Assembly (NCBI RefSeq): GCF_900143015.1
Contig: NZ_FSRT01000002.1
Span: 310,001 to 374,000 of the forward strand
Reading direction: 5' to 3'
Length of the DNA: 64,000 nucleotides
From: Fibrobacter sp. UWB11
GTDB lineage: Bacteria > Fibrobacterota > Fibrobacteria > Fibrobacterales > Fibrobacteraceae
This document shows, in pieces, positions 33,862 through 59,613 of the stretch; the stretch's first letter is position 1, and every line of letters starts with the position of its first letter. The notes under the pieces are model-generated. The model was given only the letters and a program-made list of their open reading frames with translations. It did no database searches and was not told the DNA's origin. Both the position numbers and the translations under genes were made by a program.

Positions 33862-34226
33862 GGTTTACCTCAAGCCCCGCAACACAGCGCTGCGGGCATT
33901 AAATTTTCGGGCGTAAAGATAGAAAATGGCTAAAGTCACGGCAATGCGCCCTCCCCGCCAAAGCAGCCAAAAACAGTCTCCGTCCCCCTCCCCATATTCC
34001 TAAATAAATTCACAAAATCTGCAAAAAGCGCGCACACTGTAAGAAAATTATATATATCTATTTATAGATAGGACGGGAGCAACAACACTCGACTTTCGAC
34101 TTATGTAAGAAAAACGTTAGTCCTTTTTGGACTATCAAGATTTATTGTAAATCTTGAATTTACAATTCCTTGATATCTATATTAGCGGCTAATCCATTTG
34201 ACAAAATCAAAAACAGAGGTACGAAA
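33862..34226. promoter_or_regulatory. Divergent ileS / sugar porter intergenic region with nested hairpins
   Basis: The gap holds promoters for both directions. In the porter leader, TAGTCC-TTTTT-GGACTA (34119-34135) is followed by overlapping alternatives: CAAGATTTA (34137-34145) can pair with TAAATCTTG (34149-34157), while TTGTAAAT (34146-34153) can pair with ATTTACAA (34159-34166). The two stems exclude each other. No gene is visible. Confidence 0.45.
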
Positions 34227-37165: not shown

Positions 37166-39343
37166 TTACTTCACGTTGACGCGGTTCATTTCGGAACCAA
37201 CGCGAACGATGTAGGAACCAGCGCTCGGAACGTTAACGGTGAGGTTGCTGTTCATGAGCATGCCACCGGCAATAGCCTTGCCCTGCATGTTGTAGACCAT
37301 GAACACGTTACCAGCCTTAGCACCGTTGATTTCAAGTTTCATGCCATTTGCACGAACGCTGAAGCTCGGAGCAAAGGAAACCTTGTAGAGGCTAACAGGC
37401 TTGATTTCGATGCCAGTGAGCTTGACCGGATCAACAGCGGTCTTGCTTGCGTCGAGGAATTCGACAGCGCTGATGGTGAGTTCACCGAGGCCGCCCTTAG
37501 CGTCCTTGACTTCCCACTTGAGGCCCTTGATGCAGGTGAGGATTTCGCCGCCTTCCGGAGCGTTGTTCTTGCTAACCCAGTCAAGGATATTGATTTCCTT
37601 GCCATCACCCAAACCCTTGAAGCCGTATTCATACGGAGTCATGTCATAGGTCACAGCCTTGAATTCTTCGGAGTTGTCAACATAGATACCCGGTTCAGAA
37701 CCTGCACCTGCGTTTTCAACTTTCTTCTTTTCGTTTTCGTCGGTGATGGTGTTGAGGATAGCCATGCGGATCGGACCAGAAGTCTTAGCCGTCACGCGGA
37801 TGTACTGGATGCCGAGAGTCTTGAAGTTGACACCGCAGGAACCATCGTTCTTGCATTCGTCCTTCTTGAAGGAAACTGCAATACCAGCAGACGGATACTT
37901 GAGCGTGCCAGCCTTAGCAGCTGCTTCAGTCCATTCCGGTTCCGGACCGATTTCCATAGAAGCGCGAGCAACGATAGAACCATCATCAAGTCTGTAGAGC
38001 GGAGATGCGCCAGAATCCGGGACCATCTTGGTGCCGATACCGAGCTTGTCGTGGTATGCACCCCAGTTCCAGAGACCAGAGACAGCAACAGTCGTATCAC
38101 CGAATGTCAAGTGTTCACCTTCGCCTTCGCTGATGGACGGAGCCTTAGACGGGTCCGGTGTGAACGGAGTGAAACCAGTGGTATTGTAGAGGTTCGGCAT
38201 GTTACCCGTCACGAGGAGGAGGTAGAGCATGTTCAAAGTAGCCGGATAGTACTTTTCACCAGCAACAGAGCCTTCACCGCAACCCTGAGCGGTAGCGCAG
38301 CTTGTCTTTTCCTTGAGAACCTTGTAAACCGTACCGAGGTAGGTTTCAGCTTCCTTGCTGTCGATAGAAGACGTTGCAAGGCCGAGACCACCGGAGAAGG
38401 TAGAAGAAACGAAGCGACGGATATCGCTGTTATCAATATGATAAGCACCACCTTCGTACTTATAACCGGAGTTCACGCCACTAGCAGTGCGGGTTTCCGG
38501 GATAAGCCAGCTAACAACTTTCTTGTTGAATGCCTGAGCCTTGGTATCGCCGTACCAGTAATAAGCCCAAGCCATACGCCACGGCGTACGAGCAGCGTCA
38601 TCGTAGAAACCGATATCGTTAGAAACGGCTGCAGATGTCAAAATCGGCTTGTGGGAGTTCCAGTCGCACCAGTCCGGCACAAGACCAGTCTTGGAATCCT
38701 GGCAAGCGTTCAAGTCAGTATAAGCCTGAGAGATAACACTAGACCAAGAACCGCCAGCAACGTCCTGGAAAAGCTGGAAGTTGGCAGTCGTTGCATAGCT
38801 CGGGTTGAAACCGTCATTCCACTGGTTACCCGGCTTAATCTTGCCGCCATTGATGTCGTTGGAAGCAATCCAAGAAATGAGGGACTTGCCTGCAGAGAGG
38901 TAAGAAGCATCATTCCACTGCTTGGAAGCCATCACGAGAGCGAGAGCAGCGTCAAAGTCAGCGTCAGATGCCGTACCGGAACCGCCATTGCAGCCGATAC
39001 GCCAGTTCATGCCACCGCCACCAGCGCTATTGCTTGTCCATGTGTTGTAAAGTTTCTTGAAAACATCCTGATCGTCCATGTAGACGGAAATCAACATACC
39101 GTATGCAATAGCTTCAGAAACGGTAGAGCAAGTTCCTTCCGGAGCAAAAACCCAGCCCTGGGAAGCATCGTACCAGGCCTTCTTCCATGTCTGGTAGTGA
39201 GTCTTGATCATATCCGTATCGGCATATTCAATAATCTTGCCGTGCGGATACTTCATGTTCTGCGGGAACGGGAACTGTCCAGCAGTAGCCGTTACTGCAG
39301 CGAATGCAGCAAGGCCAAACATAGCTTTAACCAAAGTCTTCAT
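37166..39343 (-). CDS. Family 8 endoglucanase with C-terminal beta domain, secreted
   Basis: A 725-residue secreted GH8 enzyme cleaving beta-1,4-glucans. It has a signal peptide to about residue 21 (AAVTATAGQF) and a GH8 alpha/alpha barrel with the acid Glu77 in STVSEAIAYGM, SDADFDAALAL (127-136) and WCDWNSHKP. Residues 410-650 form a second domain with TYDMTPYEYGF and ILTCIKGLKWEVKD, which resembles CBM11-type carbohydrate-binding modules; this is tentative. The end (MVYNMQGKAIAGG...AGSYIVRVGSEMNRVNVK) is a type IX secretion sorting domain. AAAGGA precedes the ATG at 8 bases. Xylanase or chitosanase activity also occurs in GH8. Confidence 0.9.
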   Translation of the reverse strand: MKTLVKAMFGLAAFAAVTATAGQFPFPQNMKYPHGKIIEYADTDMIKTHYQTWKKAWYDASQGWVFAPEGTCSTVSEAIAYGMLISVYMDDQDVFKKLYNTWTSNSAGGGGMNWRIGCNGGSGTASDADFDAALALVMASKQWNDASYLSAGKSLISWIASNDINGGKIKPGNQWNDGFNPSYATTANFQLFQDVAGGSWSSVISQAYTDLNACQDSKTGLVPDWCDWNSHKPILTSAAVSNDIGFYDDAARTPWRMAWAYYWYGDTKAQAFNKKVVSWLIPETRTASGVNSGYKYEGGAYHIDNSDIRRFVSSTFSGGLGLATSSIDSKEAETYLGTVYKVLKEKTSCATAQGCGEGSVAGEKYYPATLNMLYLLLVTGNMPNLYNTTGFTPFTPDPSKAPSISEGEGEHLTFGDTTVAVSGLWNWGAYHDKLGIGTKMVPDSGASPLYRLDDGSIVARASMEIGPEPEWTEAAAKAGTLKYPSAGIAVSFKKDECKNDGSCGVNFKTLGIQYIRVTAKTSGPIRMAILNTITDENEKKKVENAGAGSEPGIYVDNSEEFKAVTYDMTPYEYGFKGLGDGKEINILDWVSKNNAPEGGEILTCIKGLKWEVKDAKGGLGELTISAVEFLDASKTAVDPVKLTGIEIKPVSLYKVSFAPSFSVRANGMKLEINGAKAGNVFMVYNMQGKAIAGGMLMNSNLTVNVPSAGSYIVRVGSEMNRVNVK

Positions 39344-39483
39344 ATGAATTCCTTTTAAAAAAAGATTTCACCCATCCAACCTAAAAGATAGTTTGATACT
39401 ATATAAAAAATCAACCCTTCTTTTGTAAAAGGATTGACATAATGCGTAAAATCACACGAAAAGTGTTCTTAAAACGTTCCTGT

Positions 39484-41751
39484 TCAGCGAGTTACGTTAA
39501 CTTTTCTTTGCATTACTCTGTTCATCGTCTCTAGGACTTTCGCCACCACGAACGGTTTTGGCAAATGATCATCCATTCCGGCATCGAGAGACTTTTGGCG
39601 GTCTTCATCAAACGCATTTGCCGAAAGTGCAATAATTGGAATTTTTGCTTGCGGGTAAATCTTTCGGATGGCCTTCGTCGCCTCGTAGCCATCCATGACT
39701 GGCATCTGGACGTCCATCAGAATGCAATCGTAAAAATCCGGAGAATGTTCACGGACACGTGTCACGGCCTCGAGGCCATTTTCGGCGATATCCACACTCA
39801 TTTCGGCATCTAGCAAAAAGTCCTGCGCAACTTCCCTATTGAATTCGTTATCTTCAACAAGCAAAACATGCTTGCCTTTCAAAAATTTACCTTCGTCGAG
39901 CGTATTCATTTCGCCATGGTCCAAGGCAACGTCGCTTTCTGTCGCTATCTTGAACTGGATACGCACATGAACAGTCGTCCCAAGCCCAATTTCGCTTTGG
40001 ATATCAATTTCTGCACCGATCATATCGGCAAGGCGCTTTACAATGGACATTCCAAGCCCAGTTCCCTGCAAGCGGCTTTGCGTTGAATTTTGCTCGCGAG
40101 CGAATTCTTCGAAAATGTGTTCCAAAAACGCCTTGGACATGCCAAGCCCATTGTCGCTAATTTCAAAGTCAAATACAGTATAGCCATCTACTTGGCAGGG
40201 CAATTCTTCTACCGTAAAGACAACGCGGCCCCCATAAGTCGTAAACTTTTCGGCATTCGATATAATATTATACAGAATCTGGCGAAGGCAGTTCACATTC
40301 GCCATGACGAACTTATTCTTGACTTCCGAAAAGTCCCAAATAAACGAAAGATTCTTTTGACTCATCATGGGAACAAAACTTTCGCAAAGTTCCGTCATGC
40401 ACGACGGCAAATTCATCATCCGTTCTTTCAGCATCAGCTGCCCGGACTCGATTTTCGCCATGTTTAGCACTTCTTCGATCAATTGGAGCAAGTAACCGCC
40501 CGATATGCGGATTTTCTTGAGCGCATCCTGAACATCTTCAGTATTTGTGATATGGCGTTCTGCACGATCGGCATAGCCTATAATTGCATTCATCGGCGTT
40601 CGGATATCGTGGCTCATGTTGAGAAGGAACTTCGATTTGGCCTCTTTGGCCTCGGCGGCAAAAGCATTCGCCTCGCGCAATTTATAATCCAATTCATTTT
40701 GGCGATATTTCAACTTGCGCCTAAAACCAAGCCATACGAGCGATGCAATCAAAGCCAATCCCAAAATTCCAAAGACTAAACCAAAAACAGCCACAATGCG
40801 GGAATGAGCATGCAACAATTCACCCGAATAGTTCGGCATTCGAAATCCCGCATACTTTACCACCTTTGCACGGACAACCTTAGGGGATAACGACAACACT
40901 CCCTTTGTCAAAATGGAAGCGAGTTCACGCGGAGCGCTCCTCGGCACAGCAATGCTCATTCCTTGTAACAAACTATCATAGCCGGCAAGCACTTGATCGT
41001 GCAAGTACTCCGGAGTAAACACCCACGCATCATCGTCACCAGTTATACCATAGCGGCCATCAAGCACAACCAAAGGTTTCTTTGTATCGTAGGTCATGAC
41101 AAATTCATACTTCAAGCCATTGTGAAGTGCAATTTCGGCAAATATGTCGAGCAAAATACCTTTCGGCATGCCGTCATCGATAAACGCATACGGGAACACC
41201 GCATTGCGGACTGTCACTTTAAGCATGCGGTCGTTACCGCGAAACTCCTGCAAAAAAGCGCGTTCCCGTTCCGAAAGTACTGACAAATCCAAAGTTTCAT
41301 CGCCAAAGTACTTGCTATTCATCTGGCTTTTCCAGTTCGGTTCTATCAAATTCATTTGCTGAATTGCATAATTGATTTCATTCAGCAACGTCGAATCTGA
41401 TTTGCGAACGGCAATGCAATCGGAGCTGGGGCCAATAGGCAACGAGAACGCGAATAGGGATTCCAATTCCTTAGACTTGTTTACCGGTAGGACAATATCG
41501 ACAGCACCGCTTTCGAGCCTTTTCAGCATTTCGTCACGAGACTTGCGGCCATAGGTAAAATCAAAATTCAAATTTGCATAGCGGGACATGCGGCGGAAAA
41601 GTTCATAGCCATAGCCATTTTTTTCTCCATTTTCCGAAATTTCATAGTAGCCGGAACTAGCATAAAACCCCACATTAATTTTTTGTGGTGCAGCAAAGGC
41701 TATTCCCCCCAGCAACAATAAAATCGGCAAAATGAAGATTTTTGCACGCAT
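39484..41751 (-). CDS. Hybrid sensor histidine kinase with periplasmic solute-binding sensor (BvgS-like)
   Basis: A 755-residue membrane sensor. It has a signal peptide (1-20), then two tandem SBP_bac_3-type domains (about 24-165 and 176-310; the second starts LKVTVRNAVFPYAF), one membrane segment (319-342), a short coiled linker, HisKA with His381 (MSHDIRTPMNAIIGY) and an ATPase domain (N-box IISNAEKF, G1 DNGLGMS, G2 GTGLGMSIVK). A receiver with Asp680 (ILMDVQMPVMDG) ends it. There is no HPt domain, so the phosphate probably goes to a separate HPt such as that at 43516. The ATG at 41751 has AGGA about 10 bases upstream; TTG 41757 is the alternative. Confidence 0.92.
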   Translation of the reverse strand: MRAKIFILPILLLLGGIAFAAPQKINVGFYASSGYYEISENGEKNGYGYELFRRMSRYANLNFDFTYGRKSRDEMLKRLESGAVDIVLPVNKSKELESLFAFSLPIGPSSDCIAVRKSDSTLLNEINYAIQQMNLIEPNWKSQMNSKYFGDETLDLSVLSERERAFLQEFRGNDRMLKVTVRNAVFPYAFIDDGMPKGILLDIFAEIALHNGLKYEFVMTYDTKKPLVVLDGRYGITGDDDAWVFTPEYLHDQVLAGYDSLLQGMSIAVPRSAPRELASILTKGVLSLSPKVVRAKVVKYAGFRMPNYSGELLHAHSRIVAVFGLVFGILGLALIASLVWLGFRRKLKYRQNELDYKLREANAFAAEAKEAKSKFLLNMSHDIRTPMNAIIGYADRAERHITNTEDVQDALKKIRISGGYLLQLIEEVLNMAKIESGQLMLKERMMNLPSCMTELCESFVPMMSQKNLSFIWDFSEVKNKFVMANVNCLRQILYNIISNAEKFTTYGGRVVFTVEELPCQVDGYTVFDFEISDNGLGMSKAFLEHIFEEFAREQNSTQSRLQGTGLGMSIVKRLADMIGAEIDIQSEIGLGTTVHVRIQFKIATESDVALDHGEMNTLDEGKFLKGKHVLLVEDNEFNREVAQDFLLDAEMSVDIAENGLEAVTRVREHSPDFYDCILMDVQMPVMDGYEATKAIRKIYPQAKIPIIALSANAFDEDRQKSLDAGMDDHLPKPFVVAKVLETMNRVMQRKVNVTR

Positions 41752-52942: not shown

Positions 52943-52977
52943 CAAAAAAAAGAACCTTCGAGGGGTTATCTCGAAGG
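52943..52977 (-). terminator. Terminator of the first xylanase locus
   Basis: The stem CCTTCGAG/CTCGAAGG (52955-52977) is followed on the minus strand by TTCTTTTTTTT. Near copies stand after the other two xylanase genes. Confidence 0.85.
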
Positions 52978-53027
52978 CCTTTGGGTATAAACACCCTTTT
53001 TGGGGGAGTTCTGTGGATTAGAGAAAC

Positions 53028-54791
53028 TTAGCGAGCGACACGGACCGACTTCACGGCACCATTCTTGACGGATCGGAGCAAATAGATGCCCTGAACCTTG
53101 ATTGCACTCGTATTTTTGAGCGTTTCTACGGCTTCATCCATACTGTAGGCACTCATACGGCCGATACGGACACCGTTCACGTCAAAGACATAGTAGTCGC
53201 TGACTTCCGGAGTTTCATAGCTAACCTGAGTCTGGATGGAGATAGGCGGTTCATCACCCTTCGTGAAGTTGATGTAGTCAATATCAAAGTATTGTGCCGT
53301 CACATCCATACGGAGAATATGCTTACCGGCCGGGAGCGTCACCTTTTTCTTCACATCAATGAAGTCGTCCCAGCTTGACCCAGTAACATCGAACTCACCG
53401 ACAGACTTTCCATCAATGGAGAGCTTGAAGGAGCCAGTTCCATCAGCAGCGACAGAAGCCGTTGCCGTATATTCGCCAGCTTCTGCGATGTCGACAGAAT
53501 ATTCCAGCCAGTCACCAGTCGTGTTATAACCAACAATCTTTCCGGTTGCCTTACCGTAGATGTCGACATCGGCGGCATCGCTCTTGCGGTAGTCGGAATC
53601 ACCATGGTTTTCAGGATCGCCATCGCTGTAAGACACGTTGCTTACGCCATCGGTTTCACCGACACCGGTAATATCAAAGTCTTCGACTTCAATCTTGCCC
53701 GGGATTGGCAATGCAGCACCCTTGAACGGCTTGCGCGGCACTGGCTCAGGCGGTACATACGGAGCAAAGAGGCCCGTGTTGTCCTTGCCATCCTTGAGGT
53801 GCTGCTTGAAATAGTCCTTGAGCCAGGTCATTGCCGGACGGTCATTACCGTTCTTGATAAGGCCGGAGTTACCATTCGTGGTCCAAGTAGCGCCATAGAC
53901 ATAGCCCCAGAGGGTAATGCCTGCAACCTGCGGAGATTCCCAAAATGCCGGGATCTGTTCAGAATAACGCTGCTTTTGCTGGCTATCGTTATCCGTACCG
54001 ATATCGTATTCGGTAATGAAGAGCGGCATCGGTTCGCCCTTGCCATTCTTCACGCTATTCTGGATTTTGTTCAAGGCGTTCTTGAAATCGCTGGCGTTCA
54101 TGTCGGTCAAATCATGGGCCTGCTGGCCATAAGCATCAACCGGAGCGCCCTGTTTCACGAGCTTGTTCACAAGGTCAATACCTTCGTTAATCTGCCATCT
54201 GAAAGTATTGTAGTCGTTATAGATAAGGATAGCCTTCGGCCAGCGTTCACGAGCCATCTTGAATGCCGTTACCACGAATTCGTAGTTGCCGTTATCGCCA
54301 CCGAGAGCAGGAATGATGTTGTTGTTCTTGCCGTAACCGGAATGATAGCTGCCACCCGATTTAATGGCTTCGTTCACCACGTCAATCATTTCGAGGTCGG
54401 GATAATGTTCGGCAACAGCATCAAACCATTTGGTAATTGCGGCCTTGGTATCGGCTGTGCTCAAGCCGTTGAGCCAGTTCGGGTACTGGGAGCCCCAAAC
54501 GAGAGCATGGAACTTGAACTTGCCACCGTTCTTTTTGGCCCAATTGTAGCAGGCGTCGCAACCCGACTAGTTATAACGGCCACGGGTGCCTTCGATAGAG
54601 GCCCACTTACATTCGTTTTCAGCAGTAATCTGATTCCAGTAAGTGCCAAAGTCACTTTGGACTTGACCGCGTGTTGTAATATTTCCGAGGAACTTGGCAC
54701 CACCATCAGCCATGCCAGGACCTGCGAATGCACTCACTGCACCACCCAATAGGGCAGCAGATATAAAACCCTTAATGAATTTTGATTTCAT
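53028..54791 (-). pseudogene. GH10 xylanase with CBM6, interrupted by an in-frame amber codon
   Basis: The frame encodes a signal peptide (KGFISAALLGGAVSAFA), a GH10 catalytic domain (acid/base Glu in DVVNEAIKSGG, nucleophile in FITEYDIGT), CBM6 (from PGKIEVEDFD) and the 55-residue C-terminal domain YYVFDVNGVRIGRM...SVRVAR. Codon 75 is TAG (54567-54569) where the paralogue at 55735 has TGG (Trp75, in RYNWSGC). Everything downstream stays open and conserved, so the loss is recent, a suppressible stop, or a sequencing error. Restart at an internal ATG (54464) would give no signal peptide and no first barrel strands. AGAGG lies 9 bases before ATG 54791. It corresponds to one member of the published S85 cluster of three xyn10 genes; which letter is uncertain. 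Confidence 0.85.
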
Positions 54792-54828: not shown

Positions 54829-54896
54829 ATTATAAACTTATTCTCATTTTTCTCAGTTTATTCTAAGAGGGGAAAATTTATCATTGCCAAAATGTC
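54829..54896 (-). promoter_or_regulatory. Promoter and upstream box of the first xylanase gene
   Basis: -10 TATAAT (54834-54829) sits in GTTTATAATGG. About 40 bases farther upstream is TTATCATTGCCAA (54878-54890, plus-strand reading), the same box as at the other two xylanase genes. Confidence 0.55.
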
Positions 54897-55203
54897 GATA
54901 AACGGAAGTTTACATTGTATTACATAAAAACGCTACAAGCAAAGCGGTCGTAGAAGCCTTATTTAAGGGGTTGCCTCCGTAAAAGGCTATCCTAATTGTT
55001 TCAACATATTATTGAGGCATTCGGGATAGGCGCTTATCTCAGAACTTAATATTGGGGTCTTTGGTTTTGGCGAGTACCGCTTGAAAACGGCTGGCCCTAC
55101 AACAAACAACACTCTAATGCATGACCGCTAAATCGGTCTTGTGTATTTCAAAAAAAACGTCCAACCTATAAACTATGGGTAAATGAACCCAGAGGGTTAG
55201 ATT
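54897..55203. other. Intergenic stretch without recognised gene
   Basis: About 300 bases between the first xylanase promoter and a small open frame. It holds short inverted repeats (for example ACCGCTAAATCGGT near 55123-55136) and no frame or RNA that I can identify. Confidence 0.3.
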
Positions 55204-55350
55204 ATGCTCAAAAAAATGAGTAATAAGGTGAAAAAGGCGTGGATTTGGTTAAACAGGAATCAGAAATTGGTTCAAATCTATCTATGGATAGCTGAGCATC
55301 AGTGGGTTCCATGGTACATTTTCGATATGTTATCAAATTTATTTAGCTAA
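55204..55350 (+). CDS. Possible 48-residue Trp-rich peptide
   Basis: A short frame inside the 940-base gap between two xylanase genes, on the opposite strand. It begins MLKKMSNKVKKAWIWLNRN and contains five Trp, a basic N-terminus and an amphipathic middle (LVQIYLWIAEHQWVPWYIF). AGAGGG lies 9 bases before the ATG and CTATAAA-like sequence about 40 bases before it. I do not recognise it. The composition would suit a small membrane-associated peptide. Chance is a real alternative at this length. Confidence 0.35.
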   Translation: MLKKMSNKVKKAWIWLNRNQKLVQIYLWIAEHQWVPWYIFDMLSNLFS

Positions 55351-55372
55351 ATCCAGCCAATGGAGTCCTAGT

Positions 55373-55399
55373 CCTTAACCTAATTAAGTTAGGTTAAGG
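55373..55399. repeat. Perfect 11-bp inverted repeat downstream of the small frame
   Basis: CCTTAACCTAA-TTAAG-TTAGGTTAAGG. It has no T-run, so it is not a classical terminator. It may be a protein binding site or an RNA stem. Confidence 0.45.
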
Positions 55400-55580
55400 C
55401 GGGAACAGTCACTAAATTGACAATTTTTGAATATAAATTGAGTAATGATCAAAAATAATCTTCGCCGTATTTTTACTAGTCGCGTTAACATAGTAATCTC
55501 GGCATCATAATTCCCTGTTTCAGTATTAGAACTAGAGTGTGAACCACCAACCTAGCTGGTGATTTTCGTTTATACAAGGA

Positions 55581-55734: not shown

Positions 55735-57585
55735 TTAGCGAGAGATGCGAACAGACTTCACAGCGCCATTCTGGACGGAGCGGAGCATGTAGACGCCCTG
55801 GTTCTTGATCTGGCTGGAGCTCTTGAGAATCTGGACGGCTTCGCTCATGGAGTAAGCGTTCATGCGGCCAAGACGGACACCATTTGCATCGAACACGTCG
55901 TAGCTGCTGATTCTCGGAGCCTGATAATGGGCCTTCGTATTGATGCCAATTTCCGGACCCGGTTCGTCACCACCGTTACCACCCGGATTGTCACCGCCAT
56001 TGCCACCCGGATTGTCGGCAACTTCACCCTTCACGAAGTTGATGTAGTCGATGTCGAAGTACTGCTGAGTCACATCGAGGCGGAGCACATGCTTACCGGC
56101 CGGGAGCGTCACTTTTTTCTTTACGTCGGAGAAGTCATCGTAGCTGGTGCCAGAGACTTCGAATTCTGCGAGAGACTTGCCATCGAGGGAGAGCGTGAAT
56201 GCGCCCGTGCCTTCGGTAGCGACAGAAGCAACAGCGGTGTAATCGCCAGCTTCAGCAACGTTGATGGTGTATTCGTACCAGTCGCCAGTCGTGTTATAGC
56301 CGAGAGCAACTCCAGTTGCCTTCTTGTAAAGGTCGGCACCGGTATCCTTGCGGTAGTCAGAGTCGCCATGGTTTTCGAAATCGTCGCCATAGGATTCATT
56401 GCTCGTACCGTCTTCATTCTTGCCCTGGCCCGGCTTATCGAAATCTTCGACTTCAATCTTGCCCGGAACAGCGAGAGCTTCGCCCTTGAACGGTTCCTGC
56501 GGAACAGGTTCAACCGGAGTGACAACGCCAGTGTTAAGGCCAGTGGTGTTCGCGCCCTTGTTCTTGGAGAGGTAATCCTTAAGCCAAGTCATTGCAGGAC
56601 GGTCGCCGCCATTATCCTTGATGATACCGGAGTTACCATTGTTGATCCAGGTTGCACCATAAACATAGCCCCACAAGGTGATACCGGCAACATGTTCGTT
56701 TTCCATGAAGTAGGAAATCTGTTCCTGGTAGCACTGCTTTTGGATATTGTCGTTATCGGTACCGATATCGTATTCAGAGATGAACATCGGCATCTGGGTC
56801 TTGTTCCAAATTTCGCTAATGACACTCTTGAGAGTGTTGATGTTCAAGCAGGAACCGCCGCCACCGGTACCACCCGCGCCACCGCCTTGGCTCATCATGT
56901 CATGAGCCTGAAGACCGTAGGCGTCCACCGGAGCGCCGTTCTTCTTGATGGTGTTGATAAGATCAATACCCTGATCCTTGTTCCACTGAACGGTATTGTA
57001 GTCGTTATAAATCAAGATTGCCTTCGGCCAACGTTCACGAGCCATCTTGAAAGCGGTGGTCACGAACTGGTAATTACCGCCGTTATCGCCACCGAGAGCA
57101 CCGATGATGTTGTTGTTCTTGCCGTAGCCGGAGTGATAGTTGTTGTTGCCCGTACGGATAGCTTCGTTCACCACGTCGATCATTTCGAGATCGGGGTAAT
57201 GCTGCTTGACAGCGTCGAACCAAGCGGTAATCGCCTTCTTGGTTTCGTCAACGCTAAGGCCGTTCAACCAGTTCGGGTACTGAGAGCCCCATACAAGCGC
57301 ATGGAACTTGAAGTGACCGCCGTTGTTCTTCGCCCAGTTATAGGCGGCATCGCAACCAGACCAGTTGTAACGACCGCGAGAGCCTTCGATAGAAGCCCAC
57401 TTACATTCATTTTCAGCCGTAATCTGGTTCCACAACTTCGTAAAGTCGCTACGAACCTGGCCACGAGTAGTAATGTTACCAACGAACTTAGCTGCACCAT
57501 CAGCCAAGCCCGGTCCAGCAAAAGCACTTACAGTTCCACCCAAAAGTGCTGCAGTTACGATACTTTTAATGAATTTTGATTTCAT
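55735..57585 (-). CDS. GH10 endo-1,4-beta-xylanase with CBM6, secreted
   Basis: A 616-residue xylan-degrading enzyme. Signal peptide (1-23, LLGGTVSAFA), GH10 barrel (about 28-345) with acid/base Glu142 (DVVNEAI) and nucleophile Glu271 (FISEYDIG), CBM6 (374-519, with ENHGDSDYRK and NTTGDWYEYT), a Gly-rich linker (527-545) and the C-terminal domain (561-616, YDVFDANGVRLGRM to SVRISR). A run of Gly at 233-245 is inserted in a barrel loop and is absent from both neighbours. ATG 57585 is chosen because GAGG lies 8 bases before it; an upstream start at 57630 has no support. Intact paralogue of the broken gene next door. Confidence 0.94.
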   Translation of the reverse strand: MKSKFIKSIVTAALLGGTVSAFAGPGLADGAAKFVGNITTRGQVRSDFTKLWNQITAENECKWASIEGSRGRYNWSGCDAAYNWAKNNGGHFKFHALVWGSQYPNWLNGLSVDETKKAITAWFDAVKQHYPDLEMIDVVNEAIRTGNNNYHSGYGKNNNIIGALGGDNGGNYQFVTTAFKMARERWPKAILIYNDYNTVQWNKDQGIDLINTIKKNGAPVDAYGLQAHDMMSQGGGAGGTGGGGSCLNINTLKSVISEIWNKTQMPMFISEYDIGTDNDNIQKQCYQEQISYFMENEHVAGITLWGYVYGATWINNGNSGIIKDNGGDRPAMTWLKDYLSKNKGANTTGLNTGVVTPVEPVPQEPFKGEALAVPGKIEVEDFDKPGQGKNEDGTSNESYGDDFENHGDSDYRKDTGADLYKKATGVALGYNTTGDWYEYTINVAEAGDYTAVASVATEGTGAFTLSLDGKSLAEFEVSGTSYDDFSDVKKKVTLPAGKHVLRLDVTQQYFDIDYINFVKGEVADNPGGNGGDNPGGNGGDEPGPEIGINTKAHYQAPRISSYDVFDANGVRLGRMNAYSMSEAVQILKSSSQIKNQGVYMLRSVQNGAVKSVRISR

Positions 57586-57619
57586 TTCCACATCCTCATA
57601 GTTAAATACCCATACAACC

Positions 57620-57686
57620 ATTATAAACATATCCTTGTTTTAGGGGATAACCGCAAAAAGGCAAAAATTTATCATTGACAAAATGT
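57620..57686 (-). promoter_or_regulatory. Promoter and upstream box of the second xylanase gene
   Basis: -10 TATAAT (57625-57620) sits in GTTTATAATGG. TTATCATTGACAA (57670-57682) lies about 45 bases farther upstream, as at the first gene. Confidence 0.55.
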
Positions 57687-57706
57687 CCATAATGGATTGT
57701 TTACAA

Positions 57707-57734
57707 AAAGGACCTTCGAGGGTGAACTCGAAGG
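57707..57734 (-). terminator. Terminator of the third xylanase gene
   Basis: The stem CCTTCGAG/CTCGAAGG (57713-57734) with CCTTTTTG downstream on the minus strand is a copy of the terminators of the two other xylanase genes. Confidence 0.8.
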
Positions 57735-57783
57735 TCTTTGAATAAGTAACTCCCTTTAGGGAGTTTTGGATTAGGAACTTGTT

Positions 57784-59613
57784 TTAGCGCGTAATGCGAA
57801 CCGTTTTTACAGAGCCATTCTTGACAGAGCGGAGCATGTAAATGCCCTGAATCTTGATGGACTTCGAATTCTTGAGCATCGACACGGCTTCGTCTACGGA
57901 GTAGGCGCTCATGCGGCCAAGGCGGACACCGTTCATGTCGAAGACATCGTAATCGGCGAGTTCAGGAGTTGCCATACGAACATTCGTGCGAATGGCATTT
58001 TCCTTTTTACTTACAAAGTTGAAGTAGTCCACGTCGAAGTATTCTGCCGTAACATCCATGCGCAAGATATGCTTACCTGCCGGAAGCGTCACATCAGCAG
58101 AGACATCCTTGTAATCATCCCAGTTCGTGCCCGAAACCGGAATTTCGGCAATGGACTTGCCATCAATGGAGAGCTTGAAGGAAGCGTCTTCGCTTTCTGT
58201 TGCCACAGAGGCGGTCATGGTGTAATCGCCAGCTTCTGCGATGTTGACGGTGTATTCCAGCCAATCGCCCGTTTGGTTGTAACCTACGATAACGCCTGTA
58301 GCCTTAGCATAAAGGTCGACAGCCGAAGCGTCATCCTTGCGGTAGTCGGAATCGCCATGATTTTCGGAATCGTCGCTGAAAGAAGCATTGGTTGTACCAT
58401 CTTCGTTGACACCCTTGCCTGGAACGTCAAAGTCTTCGGCTTCAATCTTACCCGGAATTTCGCGCACCTTGCCCTTAAACGGAGTTTGCGGTTCAGGTTC
58501 CACCGGAGTGAAAGTCACATCGTTCTTACCCTTGCTTAAGTTGTTTGCAAAATATTCTTCGAGCCAGTTCATGGAAGCGCGCTTGCGGCCATCTTTTTCG
58601 ATGAGGCCGGTGTTTGCAACCCAGGTAGAGCCGTTGATATAGCCCCAAATGGTAATGCCTGCAACCCACGGAGTTTCCCACATGAACGGGATCTGGTTTG
58701 CATAATCGTTTTTCTGCTTGGTATCGTCCGCTTCGCCGATATCGTATTCCGACACGAGGAGCGGGAGGCCTGTCTCGTTATGGATTCGGGTCATCTTGCT
58801 TTCGAAATCAGACTTGCTCATGCCCTTGCAGTCGTGAGCCTGCTGGCCGTAAGCATCGACCGGAGCGCCGTTCTTGACAATAGTCTGGATGAGTTCGATA
58901 CCTTCGTTGATCTGCCAGGAAAGCGTGTTGTAGTCGTTATAGATAAGCACAGCCTTCGGCCAGCGTTCGCGAGCCATCTTGAAAGCGGTGGTGATAAAGT
59001 CGTACTGGTGCTTGCCATTTACAACGCGGTCACCGCCGAGGGCTTCGATAATGTAGGAGCCGCCGCATTCGGTATCGTCGGTGCTGTGGCCTTCGGCACC
59101 TGCAGCAGGCTTGCCGTAACCGGAGTGGTAGTTGTTACCCGCCCAAATGGCTTCGTTCACCACGTCGATGTATTCGAGGTCCGGGAACTTGGCGGCAACG
59201 GCATCAAACCATTCCGTGATGTACTTTTTGGTGAGTTCTACGGTAATGCCCGGATTTTTCTTTTTGCAGAGGAAGTTCGGGTACTGGGAACCCCAAACGA
59301 GGGCGTGGAACTTGAAGTGGCGTTCGCCCGGTTTTTCCTTGGCCCACTTGTAGGCGCTTTCGCACTTGTCGAAGTTGTCCCAGGCGAACTTGCTTGTACC
59401 GCTGTTGCCATTAGAAAGGGAATGGATGGAGCCCCACTTACAGCCGTTTTCGGGTGTAATCTGGTTCCAATATTGAGCAAAGTCGCTACGAATCTGGCCG
59501 CCCGTAGTAATATTGCCCAGGAATTTTGCACCGCCATCGGCTAAAGCGGCATTTGCAAGAGAAGTAAATCCGGCGATGGCTACAACAGCAAGAGAAAGAG
59601 AGATTTTTTTCAT
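57784..59613 (-). CDS. GH10 endo-1,4-beta-xylanase with CBM6, secreted (third copy)
   Basis: A 609-residue xylanase, more divergent than the first two. The signal peptide is MKKISLSLAVVAIAGFTSLA. The GH10 domain has an insertion (IHSLSNGNSGTSKFAWDNF) where the others have the short RGRYNW loop, acid/base Glu in DVVNEAIWAG and nucleophile in LVSEYDIGEA. CBM6 begins at PGKIEAEDFDVPG and the C-terminal domain at YDVFDMNGVRLGRM, ending in TVRITR. It is the oldest member of the tandem array by similarity. The start at 59613 has TAGGATT close upstream. The match to the S85 xyn10 cluster supports the function. Confidence 0.94.
   Translation of the reverse strand: MKKISLSLAVVAIAGFTSLANAALADGGAKFLGNITTGGQIRSDFAQYWNQITPENGCKWGSIHSLSNGNSGTSKFAWDNFDKCESAYKWAKEKPGERHFKFHALVWGSQYPNFLCKKKNPGITVELTKKYITEWFDAVAAKFPDLEYIDVVNEAIWAGNNYHSGYGKPAAGAEGHSTDDTECGGSYIIEALGGDRVVNGKHQYDFITTAFKMARERWPKAVLIYNDYNTLSWQINEGIELIQTIVKNGAPVDAYGQQAHDCKGMSKSDFESKMTRIHNETGLPLLVSEYDIGEADDTKQKNDYANQIPFMWETPWVAGITIWGYINGSTWVANTGLIEKDGRKRASMNWLEEYFANNLSKGKNDVTFTPVEPEPQTPFKGKVREIPGKIEAEDFDVPGKGVNEDGTTNASFSDDSENHGDSDYRKDDASAVDLYAKATGVIVGYNQTGDWLEYTVNIAEAGDYTMTASVATESEDASFKLSIDGKSIAEIPVSGTNWDDYKDVSADVTLPAGKHILRMDVTAEYFDVDYFNFVSKKENAIRTNVRMATPELADYDVFDMNGVRLGRMSAYSVDEAVSMLKNSKSIKIQGIYMLRSVKNGSVKTVRITR

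Follow-up and report, generated by a model that had tools for sequence, protein, structure and literature searches.

Tandem xylanase genes in Fibrobacter and the window locus

The xylanase gene cluster of Fibrobacter succinogenes S85 was reportedly described by Jun et al. in 2003. In the entries of Table 1 of PMC6851124, the S85 genes FSU_2292-2294 encode xylanases of the GH10-CBM6-FPm-1 type with residue ends at 623, 616 and 588. FSU_2294 is listed with characterised xylanase activity (PMC3079729, Table 3), and FSU_2293 or FSU_2294 has been reported in the S85 cell envelope by proteomics (PMC6851124).

The stretch of Fibrobacter DNA analysed here (64 000 nucleotides, hereafter the window) has the same arrangement of three tandem GH10-CBM6 xylanase genes as that tabulated for S85. 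The tabulated residue ends equal the 623, 616 and 588 codons of the corresponding genes in the related genome G014, whereas the three window genes give 609, 616 and 587. Since the S85 lengths match G014 and not the window, the window genome probably belongs to a near relative of S85 rather than to S85 itself. The intact orthologue of the window gene at 53028-54791 is then likely to be FSU_2294, from which, as listed, the window gene differs by a stop at codon 75. Over 247 aligned positions, the GH16 glucanase of the window genome shows 9 differences from the chain of PDB 3axd, which we take to be from strain S85; the first of these differences may stem from vector sequence.

The second system for comparison is that of bacterial pseudogenes with a single nonsense mutation, in which one substitution has produced a stop in an otherwise intact and recently constrained gene. 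The window gene shows no difference in kind: its stop is present in 0 of 82 other distinct sequences, and both catalytic glutamates are located downstream, so that the catalytic part is cut off. This case stands out only by how recent the loss appears and by the position of the gene beside intact paralogues in a tandem array. Judged by title, the Fibrobacter literature on premature stop codons or glycoside hydrolase pseudogenes included nothing on this gene, and a query for "Xyn10D" in the Fibrobacter literature returned Butyrivibrio work only, also by title.

Gene layout and conserved domains

The features of the amber-bearing gene and its two paralogues were as follows.

53028..54791, minus strand: GH10-CBM6 xylanase gene with in-frame TAG, orthologue of the intact genes in G014, G001, G070 and G068
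54567..54569, minus strand: amber codon TAG; a Trp or Phe codon in 82 of 82 other distinct relatives
54570..54791, minus strand: N-terminal stub of 74 codons, signal peptide and about 35-40 residues of GH10, without a catalytic residue
53028..54566, minus strand: 512 open codons past the stop, with most of GH10, both glutamates, CBM6 and the C-terminal module
55735..57585, minus strand: adjacent intact paralogue, GH10-CBM6, 616 aa from the MKSKF start
57784..59613, minus strand: second intact paralogue, GH10-CBM6, 609 aa

Translation of the minus strand placed the TAG (plus-strand coordinates 54567-54569) at codon 75 of a gene of 588 codons, a count that includes the TAG and the natural terminal TAA. 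Apart from the TAG, all 586 codons ahead of the TAA are open, and no second in-frame lesion was found over the 588 codons. An earlier note on this DNA had stated that the TAG stands where the adjacent paralogue has Trp75 and that the 512 codons beyond it are open; both statements hold, as the paralogue at 55735-57585 carries Trp at residue 75 and the translation agrees on the open frame. The earliest start codon past the TAG is a TTG located 34 codons on, giving 478 aa without a signal peptide.

With the gene read through, Pfam identified GH10 at residues 39-325 (PF00331, 198 bits, cut-off 22.1) and CBM6 at residues 406-511 (PF03422, 91.2 bits, cut-off 28.9). The post-stop part alone matched GH10 over 248 model positions and the whole of CBM6, and the 74-residue stub alone scored slightly under the GH10 cut-off. 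E141 (in DVVNEA) and E261 (in ITEYDIG), which are presumably the two GH10 glutamates, are both downstream of codon 75, and the same note's claim that the catalytic glutamates and CBM6 are kept past the stop is thereby borne out. The C-terminal sorting domain was matched by no Pfam or NCBIfam model, and the C-terminal end could be aligned with the paralogues right to its end; the putative label of sorting domain rests on this alignment and on the FPm-1/BTD assignment given for S85 FSU_2292-2294 in PMC6851124.

Codon 75 in related sequences

At codon 75, the 82 other distinct sequences had either TGG (60 sequences) or a Phe codon (22 sequences), and none had a stop. The set comprised 83 distinct sequences including the amber gene, obtained as matches with E-values up to 1e-60 that spanned residues 65-250; forty bulk stretches belonging to the same contig as the window were left out. 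The distant solved GH10 xylanase 4pmx also aligns Trp at this position.

When the amber gene was searched against 80 Fibrobacter genomes, 74 matched at E-values up to 1e-150, and among the at least 150 matches listed, two were flagged with inside stops, i.e. the amber gene and a gene of G079. The latter was rejected as a second broken copy, its TGA preceding the start codon of an intact open frame of 629 codons. The closest orthologues compared (G014, G001, G070 and G068, from a sample of one genome per species) were all intact and aligned from end to end with 92-94% protein identity, and the reading frame of the amber gene is therefore not due to chance. The order of the three-gene array is likewise conserved, with the orthologue beside the other two paralogues in all four genomes.

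Selective constraint and age of the stop

On the branch to the amber gene, with G014 and G001 as references, dN was 0.033 and dS 0.68, the latter near saturation and hence rough, with a dN/dS ratio of 0.048 (bootstrap 0.031-0.073). In the comparison of G014 with G001, the ratio for this gene was higher, 0.071. On the same branch, the ratios were 0.175 and 0.163 for the intact paralogues, 0.093 for the neighbouring GH gene and 0.089 for the histidine kinase gene, so that the amber gene has the lowest ratio, and hence the strongest constraint, among the five. Relaxed selection after loss, usual but not required in a very young pseudogene, was absent at this ratio of 0.048. The substitution pattern suggests that the gene has spent no measurable time unconstrained, and any such period would take up only a little of the branch. 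With this low ratio and no other lesion, the stop is therefore either very young or an assembly or base-call error, and the lack of further decay is expected equally from a very young mutation and from a consensus error.

Origin of the stop codon

We consider it probable (roughly 0.75) that a single nonsense mutation at codon 75 has very recently deprived a functional xylanase gene of its function. Transcription would probably still begin at the gene's own putative promoter, and translation would halt after the stub of signal peptide and the start of GH10, so that no enzyme would be made. Just upstream lie genes for two similar GH10-CBM6 xylanases, both intact, which should supply the missing activity and make the loss tolerable. 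We infer that the TAG is genuine and the gene yields no product, and that redundancy explains the tolerance. The event is thus most likely an ordinary young pseudogene formed by a fresh nonsense loss in a three-gene xylanase array, with an error as the main rival.

Such an error, in base-calling or in the assembly consensus, would mean that the gene is intact in the living strain. It is unlikely, although it would account for a lone substitution in a strongly constrained gene (dN/dS 0.048) without a second lesion. Against it stands the quality of the genome, which consists of 3 763 481 bases in 9 contigs, is scored 100% complete and was probably deeply sequenced. Moreover, a poor consensus should leave other lesions, and the comparison with 22 reading frames of G014 and 14 of G001 showed none. 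In this control, the window was compared with the reading frames of G014 and G001 at a match identity of at least 60%; frames with any match numbered 22 of 25 for G014 and 15 of 24 for G001, one G001 match being below 60%. Besides 54569, stops were flagged at 33931, 39370 and 46450, and all three were rejected as lesions: the first is five codons from the match end and was taken as a natural end, the second precedes the true ATG of its gene, within a conserved leader, and the third is its gene's own stop. As these positions mark natural ends or fall in a leader, a low general consensus error rate across the window is suggested. A de novo scan for single stops in 854 kb of contig C2 returned 70 candidates, with the amber gene unflagged at the thresholds used, and was dropped as noise. 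A polymorphism within the species or culture, with the stop in some cells and missing in others, would fit the extreme youth of the stop and overlaps with recent nonsense loss, differing only in frequency; we regard it as very improbable. From the window, the two closest relatives compared are separated by about 0.74-0.84 synonymous substitutions per site.

Translation through the amber codon by a suppressor tRNA, pyrrolysine or programmed readthrough, with full-length enzyme made, would be in line with the wholly open and constrained downstream frame, but the youth of the stop explains this constraint equally well. No CTA (CUA) anticodon was found in 51 tRNA genes (ARAGORN on their loci; 150 of 183 first-look candidates scored), release factor RF1 is present (500 bits, cut-off 423), and the best PylS match was 32.6 bits against a cut-off of 178, most control genomes likewise giving matches under the threshold. 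On these three grounds suppression is disfavoured, and as codon 75 is a sense codon in all the relatives compared, there is no conserved recoding. The natural stops of 20 conserved window genes were 17 TAA, 2 TAG and 1 TGA, and TAG is a normal stop in this genome. Readthrough producing the full-length enzyme is accordingly given hardly any credence, and just as little is given to a low-level readthrough that yields little full-length xylanase, the product of which would maintain the constraint on the 512 downstream codons. Among the four options left by the earlier note, very recent inactivation is thus the best supported, on the lack of any other lesion and the low dN/dS, and the suppressed stop has lost ground. 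The locus does not look like a new reading of the genetic code; it looks like an ordinary case in which a spare gene copy was lost very recently, a sequencing error being the other possibility.

If real, the nonsense mutation cleanly captures gene loss within a tandem enzyme array at its first step, and would help in studying the redundancy of the three Fibrobacter xylanases. Annotation of the strain will split or drop one xylanase.

Flanking signals, spacer and paralogues

Two candidate signals flank the amber gene.

54829..54856, minus strand: promoter-like hexamers just upstream of the gene, 10 of 12 positions matching; weak, in a stretch conserved in relatives
52953..52979, minus strand: terminator-like hairpin and T run, 3′ of the gene

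Promoter-like sites upstream of the gene were fewer than in shuffled sequence (1 observed, 4.7 in shuffles). The spacer between the amber gene and the next gene is 943 bases long, compared with about 257-352 bases in G014, G001, G070 and G068. Silencing of the gene by the enlarged spacer was considered and rejected, because conservation in relatives extends over the promoter-proximal 100-140 bases. For the greater part of the extra spacer DNA (54915-55456), there was no counterpart among the matches listed elsewhere in the genome or in 60 other Fibrobacter genomes.

The spacer also holds a relic of a decayed IS200-type element (55457-55577). Its two parts, 55457-55539 and 55540-55577, correspond to segments of a Y1_Tnp element in G070 that are separated there by 391 bases. 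The relic is composed of a degenerate transposase piece with stops joined to the end of the element, about 391 bases being missing between them, and it leaves the conserved stretch upstream of the amber gene intact.

Both intact paralogues (55735-59613) evolve faster on the window branch (dN/dS 0.16-0.18) than the amber copy (0.048), and the ratio of the first paralogue between G014 and G001 was only 0.018. Elsewhere in the window, the region at 39343-39500 is a conserved non-coding leader upstream of the gene ending near 37169, and is common to G014 and G001.
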